Shown piece by piece: positions 32,011-33,913 of a stretch of DNA of 36,030 bases. The stretch comes from Candidatus Altarchaeales archaeon ex4484_2 (GTDB lineage: Archaea; Altiarchaeota; Altiarchaeia; IMC4; QMZM01), in NCBI GenBank assembly GCA_002254565.1, contig NJEG01000021.1, forward strand, positions 1 to 36,030, written 5' to 3'. Every line of letters starts with the position of its first letter. Positions within the stretch are counted from its first letter, which is position 1. Under the pieces are notes generated by a model. The model worked only from the letters and a program-made list of their open reading frames with translations. It was not told where the DNA came from and did not search any database. A program made the translations under genes and the position numbers.

Positions 32011-32268
32011 ATGAAAGCTGTTATATTAAACTATAGGCAGGGTAAAAGGACGCAGTCCACAAATCAATTGATTGTTAAACCAGAGGGTTCATCCAGCAAA
32101 GAGGATGCCTCCAAGCTGTTGGGTAAGAGTGTTGAGTGGACCACCCCCTCAGGCAAGAAGATTGTTGGGAAGGTCACAAGGGTACACGGTCGTAACGGCA
32201 CGGTGATAGCCAAGTTCAACAAGGGACTTCCCGGCCAAGCTCTCAGCACCAAGGCAGAGATTATTTAA
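32011..32268 (+). CDS. rpl35ae: Ribosomal protein L35Ae
   Basis: This 85-residue large-subunit protein of the archaeal/eukaryotic L35Ae (eL33) family shows AVILNYRQGKRTQSTNQLIVK, LLGKSVEWTTPSGKKIVGKVTRVHGRNGTVIAKFNKGLPGQAL in the family order, and a short tail. An ATG start with AAGGGAG upstream is clear. It lies 11 bp before tRNA-Phe and may be co-transcribed with it. Confidence 0.94.
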   Translation: MKAVILNYRQGKRTQSTNQLIVKPEGSSSKEDASKLLGKSVEWTTPSGKKIVGKVTRVHGRNGTVIAKFNKGLPGQALSTKAEII

Positions 32269-32279
32269 TCTCATTTTAT

Positions 32280-32353
32280 GCCGCTGTAGCTCAGCTTGGG
32301 AGAGCACCAGGCTGAAGACCTGGGTGTCGAGGGTTCAAATCCCTCCGGCGGCA
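32280..32353 (+). tRNA. tRNA-Phe (GAA)
   Basis: It folds as a complete cloverleaf. The acceptor GCCGCTG pairs with CGGCGGC (one G-T wobble) and the discriminator is A. The D arm is GCTC...GAGC. The anticodon stem CCAGG/CCTGG encloses loop CTGAAGA with anticodon GAA. The T arm is GAGGG TTCAAAT CCCTC. CCA is not encoded and no intron is present. Its 3' 21-22 bases are duplicated at 32962, so it acted as an integration target. Confidence 0.97.
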
Positions 32354-32354
32354 T
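32333..32354 (+). repeat. Attachment-like repeat, copy in tRNA-Phe 3' end
   Basis: The copy is inside the intact tRNA-Phe gene, from GTTCAAAT of the T loop through CGGCGGCAT. It is identical over 22 bases to the copy at 32962. Confidence 0.85.
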
Positions 32355-32392
32355 TCTAAGATTTTCTTTTTGTAAATATCAAAAGAAAACAG

Positions 32393-32629
32393 TTACTTTG
32401 GTCGGAGCATTTCCCTGAATTCTTTTACGGTTATTCCGGCATCTCTGAGAATGCTTTTAAGTAGTTTCGGGTGCAATATTCTCTTTGTGTGGTAGGGTAG
32501 AGTAACTCTTTTTCCTTCAGGGTTTTTGTATATCCTATGGCTTCCTGATTGTCTAACCAATTTAAAGCCTAACTTTTTTAGAATCTTCTCTGCTTTTTTG
32601 GCATCTACTCTGGGCAGCTTTTCGCTCAT
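32393..32629 (-). CDS. hicA: HicA toxin (mRNA interferase)
   Basis: This 78-residue double-stranded-RNA-binding-like toxin has KILKKLGFKLVRQSGSHRIYKNPEGKRVTLPYH. The His of GSH is the catalytic residue of HicA ribonucleases and is present. It is encoded after hicB with four-base overlap (ATGA), so antitoxin precedes toxin. It lies inside the attachment-like repeats next to tRNA-Phe. It is predicted to cleave mRNA when free of HicB. Confidence 0.93.
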   Translation of the reverse strand: MSEKLPRVDAKKAEKILKKLGFKLVRQSGSHRIYKNPEGKRVTLPYHTKRILHPKLLKSILRDAGITVKEFREMLRPK

Positions 32630-32868
32630 GCTCTGACCTTCAAGGTAGTTAATGCGACATTCTGGACGGAAGGGATTTCTTCTTTTGCCTCAATTCTATC
32701 CCTTATATGCAGCCTCATCGCATCCCTCAGATTCTCGAGAACCTCCTCATAGGTCTCTCCCTGCGTGTAGCATCCCTGCAAGATTGGGCAGGACGCAAAG
32801 TATCCCTCATCAGCCTTCTCGATAATAACCGGGAACTCAAATATTTTATCCACTACTCTTTTTTTCAT
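32626..32868 (-). CDS. hicB: HicB antitoxin
   Basis: This 80-residue protein has the degenerate RNase H-like HicB fold: FPVIIEKADEGYFASCPILQGCYTQGETYEEVLENLRDAMRLHI. No C-terminal ribbon-helix-helix or HTH domain is present, so DNA binding must come from elsewhere or be absent. It neutralises HicA. It starts with ATG, with the A/T-rich TTTAAGCAATAAATAC on its strand about 15-30 bases upstream as possible promoter. Confidence 0.92.
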   Translation of the reverse strand: MKKRVVDKIFEFPVIIEKADEGYFASCPILQGCYTQGETYEEVLENLRDAMRLHIRDRIEAKEEIPSVQNVALTTLKVRA

Positions 32869-32928
32869 TTTCTGATATTATTTAGTATTTATTGCTTAAA
32901 TTACTGACTAATAGGGAGGGTGGGGTTG

Positions 32929-32961
32929 ATAAGGGCAGGAACCGTAGGTGCATGCCCTTAT
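32929..32961. repeat. Nine-bp stem-loop abutting the attachment-like repeat
   Basis: ATAAGGGCA and TGCCCTTAT form a perfect nine-base-pair inverted repeat around a 15-base loop. The stem ends at 32961, and the 22-bp tRNA-derived repeat begins at the very next base. It may be a recombinase-arm site or a transcript-ending hairpin. Confidence 0.65.
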
Positions 32962-32983
32962 GTTCAAATCCCTCCGGCGGCAT
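32962..32983 (+). repeat. Attachment-like repeat, second copy
   Basis: This is an orphan 22-base copy of the tRNA-Phe 3' end. The preceding sequence does not complete the T stem (TTATG instead of GAGGG), so this is not a second tRNA gene. Confidence 0.85.
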
Positions 32984-33007
32984 ATCTCTTTTTCTTTAAG
33001 GAAAAGC

Positions 33008-33913
33008 TCACATCCCGCAGATTAGGGGTGTCATATATACCTCTATTATCCCCGCCAGCAGGAGGATGACAGCTGACAGCACCACAAGGTCTATGGAGTC
33101 TATGGTTACGTCTATGAACTCTCCTCTAATCTTGACCCCGTGTCTTGCCACCGCAACAGAGATGATCCCCCCGCCCAGCGCTCCCAGGAAGTAGGCTGAT
33201 ATCTCCGGTATCCCGTGTATGAGGTAGCAAAAGCTTATACTGAAGGAGCCGAAGTAGTTGTAGAGGAAGTCGATGTTTCCCAGGGGAGCGTATCTTATCA
33301 GTGCGTTCCTGATTGCGATGCCAATAGCCACCCCCACGATGGATGCATTGAGTGTTAGGATAAAGATGGCTCCACTCCCATAGAGGAAGGAGAATATTAT
33401 GCAAAAAACCCATACCCTGAAGTTGTTTTCGAGTATGGTGAACAAAGTGTTCGTGGATTCCTGGTTGAATCCTGTCATGTCCCCTGCGGTTGATATTACC
33501 CTGATTCTTTTTATCTCGTTTATCTGGAAGCTGAACAGGTTTTCTTCCATATCCACGGGTAGTATGATGTACCAGAAGGTGTAGGAGACCACCATTCCAA
33601 GGAAAAGGGCTACGAAGAGGGACAGGGCTTTCCCGTGTTCTTTTATAAGGAATGTTTCTTGGTGTGTTTTCCTATGCCTCTTCTGCAGGGAGTGGATGAG
33701 TTTCTCATCTTTTTCCTCCTCCAGCTGCAGGGTCTTGTACATTATTACCACAAGAGGTATGGTTGTGAGGAATATGCTGGCGAAGCTTGATTGGGAGCCG
33801 AAGGTGAAGTATGCCAGGAGTAATCCTATGCTTGAATAGATAAGACCGACATAGAACATGTCCCTGGGTGTTTTCTCAGCCTTCAGGGGGTCTACGATGG
33901 ATTCGAGTACCAT
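33008..33913 (-). CDS. SpoIIM-family (stage II sporulation protein M) membrane protein
   Basis: This 301-residue multi-pass membrane protein is of the SpoIIM/DUF95 family, widespread in archaea that do not sporulate. About five to seven helices are visible. Typical blocks are NTLFTILENNFRVWVFCIIFSFLYGSGAIFILTLNASIVGVAIG and LIHGIPEISAYFLGALGGGIIS. The N-terminal quarter adds two helices and a charged loop (LEEEKDEKLIHSLQKRHRKTHQE). Roles in membrane remodelling have been proposed for the family, but the archaeal function is unknown. It is transcribed toward the hicBA element. Confidence 0.88.
   Translation of the reverse strand: MVLESIVDPLKAEKTPRDMFYVGLIYSSIGLLLAYFTFGSQSSFASIFLTTIPLVVIMYKTLQLEEEKDEKLIHSLQKRHRKTHQETFLIKEHGKALSLFVALFLGMVVSYTFWYIILPVDMEENLFSFQINEIKRIRVISTAGDMTGFNQESTNTLFTILENNFRVWVFCIIFSFLYGSGAIFILTLNASIVGVAIGIAIRNALIRYAPLGNIDFLYNYFGSFSISFCYLIHGIPEISAYFLGALGGGIISVAVARHGVKIRGEFIDVTIDSIDLVVLSAVILLLAGIIEVYMTPLICGM

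Follow-up and report, generated by a model that had tools for sequence, protein, structure and literature searches.

Archaeal integrases usually target the 3′ ends of tRNA genes, with the tRNA being restored, and in several of their classes the att core is usually 40–50 bp long (PMC8371274). Casposons, which encode Cas1, target tRNA genes or the 3′-distal regions of protein genes; one casposase recognises the T-loop sequence TCAAATC, and the studied casposase makes a duplication of 14–15 bp (PMC6614799). At the small end of the scale the Rickettsia palindromic elements and the REP/MITE repeats may occur within protein genes, in frame with them (PMC10969869), and the GC clusters and double-hairpin elements of mitochondria are tiny mobile hairpins, constrained in structure and with no enzyme of their own, those of yeast having direct repeats of 2–3 bp, AG or ACT (PMC4478555).

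The window considered here (the whole stretch of DNA analysed, 36,030 nucleotides) holds behind its tRNA-Phe gene an insertion that belongs to a family of hairpin-ended units, whose copies are found at many genes in several groups of archaea and in part of which a duplicated piece of the neighbouring sequence follows the hairpin, often directly from its foot. With the SSV/pNOB8-type integrase elements it shares the use of a tRNA 3′ end and a restored tRNA, but there is no integrase inside, and the target genes of the family are many, protein-gene ends and 5S rRNA included. Its taste in targets is similar to that of casposons; the hairpin unit, however, is without a gene of its own and its duplicates are variable and mostly longer, and a casposon was rejected since the duplication is not of 14–15 bp (22 bp here; 14–57 bp in the family, with a 60-base search window). 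Like the Rickettsia and REP/MITE repeats the units are short, dispersed, palindromic and non-autonomous, and they have their own in-frame case (locus L028, below), but here a constant hairpin base stands at the right end together with a gene-end duplicate of about 14–57 bp or longer. The tiny hairpins recall those of mitochondria, with a second hairpin, as judged by eye, often directly ahead of the constant one, but the duplicate is long, gene ends are prominent and the setting is archaeal, not organellar. All in all the family behaves like a palindromic non-autonomous mobile repeat of the RPE/MITE kind, being a dispersed, many-copy palindrome with an empty site at one locus; the long gene-end duplication sets it apart, with no sequence relation to the known repeats shown. 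As for the genes carried in the window, they are like the type II toxin–antitoxin system HicBA in their families and overlapping operon, and are ordinary in all but their location inside a hairpin unit.

The tRNA-Phe site, occupied and empty

Table 1. Features at and around the tRNA-Phe gene (positions in the window)
Feature	Positions	Strand	Basis or remark
L35Ae (ribosomal protein), neighbour gene	32011–32268	+	
tRNA-Phe(GAA), intact target gene	32280–32353	+	ARAGORN, Rfam
D, tRNA-Phe 3′ end inside the intact gene, GTTCAAATCCCTCCGGCGGCAT	32333–32354	+	22/22 identical to 32962–32983
Left segment of the unit, T-rich, hairpin-like	32355–32399	+	may in part be old tRNA trailer
hicA toxin gene, 78 aa	32393–32629	-	Pfam PF07927
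hicB antitoxin gene, 80 aa	32626–32868	-	Pfam PF15919 + PF21748
hicBA upstream region, homologous to the hicBA locus of G004	32869–32901	-	homology 32416–32901
Right segment, AGGGAGGGTGG leader and family hairpin GGTTGATAAGGG..CCCTTAT	32908–32961	+	hairpin 32924–32961
D′, downstream copy of the tRNA-Phe 3′ end; first base is the next after the hairpin	32962–32983	+	
Native flank, joined directly to the tRNA in the empty site of G001	32984–33007	+	
SpoIIM-family protein gene, neighbour	33008–33913	-	

The copied tRNA end is found at just two sites in the window even when 3 mismatches are allowed, where shuffled sequence leads one to expect 0.00, and the perfect downstream copy described in the initial annotation is not a product of chance. 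That annotation had the two copies bracketing hicB and hicA and nothing else. As to genes this is right: none other was recognised between the copies, and the two that are there are both open, overlap by 4 bp and encode products matched by Pfam HicA_toxin (E 2e-21) and HicB_lk_antitox (E 3e-10). Overlooked was the family hairpin, whose 9-bp stem pairs 32929–32937 with 32953–32961 and whose last base adjoins the second copy. That second copy was also considered as a possible part of an unrelated gene, and is intergenic.

In a genome of the same genus (G001, contig C92) the order is POR genes, L35Ae, tRNA-Phe and SpoIIM, with a single tRNA end, and from the spacer of about 55 bases between tRNA-Phe and SpoIIM both hicBA and the hairpin are absent. 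This spacer starts ATATC..TTTCTTTAA.GAAAAG, ends ACATCCCGCAGATTAG and resembles the window sequence after the second copy. Relative to G001, therefore, 32355–32983 is a 629-bp insertion at tRNA-Phe, as had been suspected, the same downstream flank being joined up in the relative. Clean empty sites were examined at this one locus, and formally the state of G001 might be a deletion instead. In G001 and in G002, both incomplete genomes, the search for HicA homologues (E ≤ 0.001) was without a hit.

In G002 (contig C34, positions 1–110 of L241) a copy of the tRNA-Phe 3′ end, near the contig start, follows a double hairpin of another kind (GACCCAC..GTGGGTC and GTCGG..CCGAC), and therefore tRNA-Phe was probably entered more than once; after the copy come a 2.5-kb open frame, which by eye looks like a PAS-type histidine kinase, and then SpoIIM. 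The relatives are all draft genomes, and a number of their hairpin copies are near contig ends. Two further arrangements may be recorded. G010 (L243, C34:10400–10582) has a 94-bp unit twice in tandem, both times a double hairpin (GTGCTATCgaaGATAGCAC, GTGCACCgatttGGCGGTGC) and then the tRNA-Phe 3′ end, and in G004 (L246, about 2004–2130, contig C30) a 16-base copy of the tRNA-Phe end lies 91 bp downstream, behind a third type of hairpin (CACGCTTTTCTTTAGAAAAGGGTG).

Could such copies be home-made, a hairpin downstream of a gene causing replication to jump back and copy the gene end in tandem, with no foreign insert? The tRNA-Phe end copies of G002, G010 and G004, standing behind hairpins of other sequence, are in keeping with local duplication of this kind, as are arrays with hairpin-foot junctions at four further loci (L043, L051, L139 and L024). 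However, it leaves unexplained why one conserved hairpin is at scattered genes in several archaeal groups, and why the hairpin is missing from the G001 empty site; we consider it rather unlikely for the window.

The hairpin family and the gene ends behind it

The family hairpin has the form GGGTTGATAAGGG(variable stem-loop)CCCTTAT, and in the window its final base directly precedes the tRNA end copy. A search of the window's own genome (G000) with the unit gave a second locus, on contig C28, of 49 bases at 82% identity, the match covering the bases just before the copy and running into it; there too it stands ahead of a copied tRNA end, in this case of tRNA-Pro. In all, 59 hairpin copies were counted in 9 of the 13 genomes of this Altiarchaeota family (reversed-pattern control 0; slightly looser pattern) and 49 in 9 of the 29 genomes of the phylum (control 0; stricter pattern). 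A scan of GTDB genomes gave at least 113 stretches, some of them chance matches or unrelated repeats; among the matches listed most are from Woesearchaeota and other DPANN archaea, the groups besides Woesearchaeota being Pacearchaeota, Aenigmatarchaeota, Nanoarchaeota, Altiarchaeota, Methanophagales, Atribacteria and others. Viral contigs of IMG/VR gave 5 hairpin matches only, phage sequences a single weak 58-base match and the plasmid sequences searched no match. Matches in Saprospiraceae were set aside as family members, being GGTTGATAA-type repeats; at five loci of Saprospiraceae and other Bacteroidota (L085, L093, L101, L108 and L164) the pattern is matched by GGTTGATAAG-type tandem and inverted repeats, which are probably unrelated. 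Among the open-access papers searched no relevant one contains the hairpin core (the letters occur in two unrelated papers), nor was a report of archaeal or DPANN hairpin elements at tRNAs found there; this is weak evidence of novelty, and these short hairpin-ended elements are apparently new to the literature.

Some variants deserve mention. In G000 itself contigs C42, C31 and C34 (L256, L264 and L270) have a variant unit with ..GGGTTGATAC / GAGTTGATAC.. and GCGAGGGCGGG..CCCTTA(T) hairpins, and these variant units stand ahead of copied Gly, Met and other tRNA ends. At four Woesearchaeota loci (L086, L087, L138 and L165) the hairpin is mid-way in MITE-like repeats of about 240 bp with terminal inverted repeats of about 41 bp.

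At the first three positions inside GGG/CCC, 106 distinct stem-loops preserve the pairing through changes in both arms, these positions being paired in 90%, 89% and 74% of cases vs 41%, 63% and 41% after shuffling, and therefore the hairpin itself, and not only its letters, is kept. Is it then a gene for a structured non-coding RNA, made up of hairpin and tRNA-end copy with a promoter of its own, kept for its function and adjoined by hicBA merely by chance? Besides the stem covariation this would accommodate the low folding energy of the 61-nt piece (z = −3.6) and an A/T-rich, TATA-like stretch, seen by eye, that in the Phe and Pro copies precedes the G-run by about 25 bp. Yet no Rfam family except tRNA reaches threshold (with gathering and lax thresholds alike, nothing credible besides tRNA was found in the window and ten related loci), the distribution over the phylum is patchy (9 genomes of 29), and what follows the hairpin is dictated by the neighbouring gene, protein genes included, with no shared function apparent. 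An RNA gene is thereby very improbable. Two other structured candidates, an H/ACA guide RNA and an integron attC, were dropped, no matching box sequences being seen by eye.

A duplicate of the post-hairpin sequence is present within 900 bases upstream at 54 of the 164 hairpin copies vs 3 of 150 control stretches (p = 2e-14, which is generous since some copies are related or tandem); about two thirds of the copies have no detectable duplicate. In half of the 54 (27) the duplicate begins at the first base after CTTAT, and the lengths found, bounded by the search window, may be greater in reality. Left boundaries of the units are variable and blurred by T-rich tRNA trailers. Commonly the duplicated pieces are gene ends, those of tRNAs Phe, Pro, Leu, Gly, Gln, Arg, Val and others, and those of protein genes through the stop codon (FGNWLSGFL* at L017, SQKGLSEWL* at L025). 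The gene names at related loci come from short translations judged by eye (thermosome, ArgRS, histidine kinase). At L047 (G009:C50) a thermosome-like C-terminus is present twice, VDAEYEVIDDEKKKGKKG* beside VEAEYEVIDEEEKKGKKK*, the differences between the copies being 7 silent codons, 4 residues, mostly conservative, and a swapped stop. At L008 (G009:C17) a gene that by eye is 5S rRNA has its 3′ end repeated behind the family hairpin, 405 bp downstream; short open frames lie between the two, and a duplicated 5′ part of the 5S is upstream, with another hairpin. L094 has a tRNA 5′ half duplicated in antisense, and at L028 (G007:C43) the hairpin has inserted, with a duplicate of 14 bp, in an ArgRS-like gene whose frame can be read through it.

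Seen from the side of the tRNAs, 6 of 25 in the own genome and 7 of 17 in G004 (one of these seven being a match to the neighbouring tRNA-Gln and not a copy) have a copy of their own end downstream vs 0 of 42 in a shuffled control (p = 8e-5). The tRNA-to-copy distances in the own genome are 113, 113, 155, 171, 212 and 608 bases, the window unit being the longest.

The initial annotation had likened the two tRNA-Phe repeats to att sites lacking an integrase, and one of its proposals was that hicBA is the addiction remnant of a former element. On this reading a tyrosine recombinase would have integrated a larger element at tRNA-Phe, of which all but hicBA was later deleted. The direct repeats of the tRNA 3′ end and the empty site are there, the preference of archaeal integrases for such ends is on its side, and a search of the genome, as had been advised, does give a tyrosine recombinase gene. 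But that gene is not inside the unit, which has no integrase, a single att site is not what is found, and 22 bp is short for an att core of the classes mentioned at the outset. The hairpin end is common to tRNAs, 5S rRNA and protein genes, and one site-specific integrase would not give the same end at such unrelated places. Across 13 genomes none of the TnpB, Y1_Tnp and Phage_integrase genes, recombinase genes thus included, tracks hairpin copy number. The integrase reading of the repeats is not supported, and a remnant of this origin is unlikely.

Other candidate enzymes were looked for. A Y1 transposase is present in 3 of the 13 genomes only, all of them incomplete, and in neither G000 nor G004, on which ground a REP or IS200-type repeat was rejected; IS200/IS605 with TnpB was also rejected, the hairpin pattern being absent from the TnpB loci examined and the 3′ flanks inspected there carrying other hairpins. 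Clustering of the ORFs around hairpin copies gave local neighbourhoods and single-genome groups with no family-wide gene, and no transposase, integrase or other recurrent gene going with the hairpin family was found, nor a duplicate more than 600 bp upstream, which would be the mark of an autonomous copy.

The hicBA pair in its unit

A special hicBA cassette, as first pictured, does not fit with the same hairpin end and duplicated ends at many genes, usually with no recognised gene inside, and the proposed search for further copies of the cassette beside tRNAs led elsewhere: the closest hicBA relative in the family, at G004:C23 (HicA 64% identical), has no tRNA and no family hairpin nearby. 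Homology to this G004 locus extends over 32416–32901, with 358 of 484 bases identical, takes in the hicBA upstream region and then stops, the hairpin segment starting at about 32908. At the left end of the unit AAAAGAAAACAGTTACTTT (32381–32399), which provides the hicA stop codon, is identical to part of a G001 tRNA-Leu hairpin unit without hicBA. Since hairpin ends and duplicates elsewhere usually come without a recognised gene, since hicBA in G004 is elsewhere, and since the five other units of the own genome span 113–212 bp, hicBA looks like a passenger; the simplest reading, and the best, is that it rides within one hairpin unit of roughly 100 bases.

How such an element might move

We regard it as probable that in this interval a small palindromic, non-autonomous mobile element has inserted at the tRNA-Phe 3′ end, with hicBA as cargo. 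The hairpin, GGGTTGATAAGGG-stem-loop-CCCTTAT, would be its right end, and its arrival would duplicate the end of the target gene, D remaining in the intact gene and D′ lying past the hairpin foot, so that the tRNA is left unbroken. Where an insertion disrupts a needed gene it is presumably lost, and the copies that remain would be those at gene ends. Mobilisation may be in trans, by an enzyme that recognises the hairpin base, and because this base is so constant the mobilising enzyme is a well-defined question. Two versions can be envisaged: either the enzyme would make a long and variable target duplication, or a circle or donor end would bring along a gene end of its own and integrate at the resident one. 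In the latter version the circle junction would be CCCTTAT followed directly by the gene end, for the window unit a predicted GCCCTTAT joined to GTTCAAATCC and on into TCTAAG; the predicted empty junction has the tRNA body and then GGCGGCAT joined to ATCTC.

The duplicated coding ends (L024 and L037 set aside) have 18 silent or stop-to-stop vs 10 amino-acid differences, a small count in which few loci dominate, L047 above all, and for which the search pattern selects intact hairpins. Its binomial p is 1e-5 against 25% silent, and 0.008 against 40%, our own rough figure for selection on one copy only. Such ends look like functional gene ends from two lineages, and because they differ mostly at silent sites our slight preference is for the circle or imported-end version over target duplication. 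Could there be a whole class of cross-phylum archaeal mobile DNA, roughly 35–200 bp without cargo, with the hairpin foot as recombination end, that attaches, circular or as a guided end, to a replacement gene end, thus entering many genes without breaking them, and occasionally takes a small cargo such as a toxin–antitoxin pair? Tempting as this is, it is as yet a doubtful extension.

If the element is mobile as it appears to be, a very small element common to uncultivated Altiarchaeota and DPANN is giving tRNA, 5S rRNA and protein genes an additional, duplicated end. This would help explain tRNA-end copies that are taken for att sites, give a handle on the movement of very small DNA in small-genome archaea and provide a route for lodging a toxin–antitoxin pair next to an essential gene. 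One small feature of the window may be added: at 32921–32975 the GGGTTGA ahead of the stem can pair with TTCAAATCC in the adjacent T-loop copy, as if tRNA T-loops had shaped the element.
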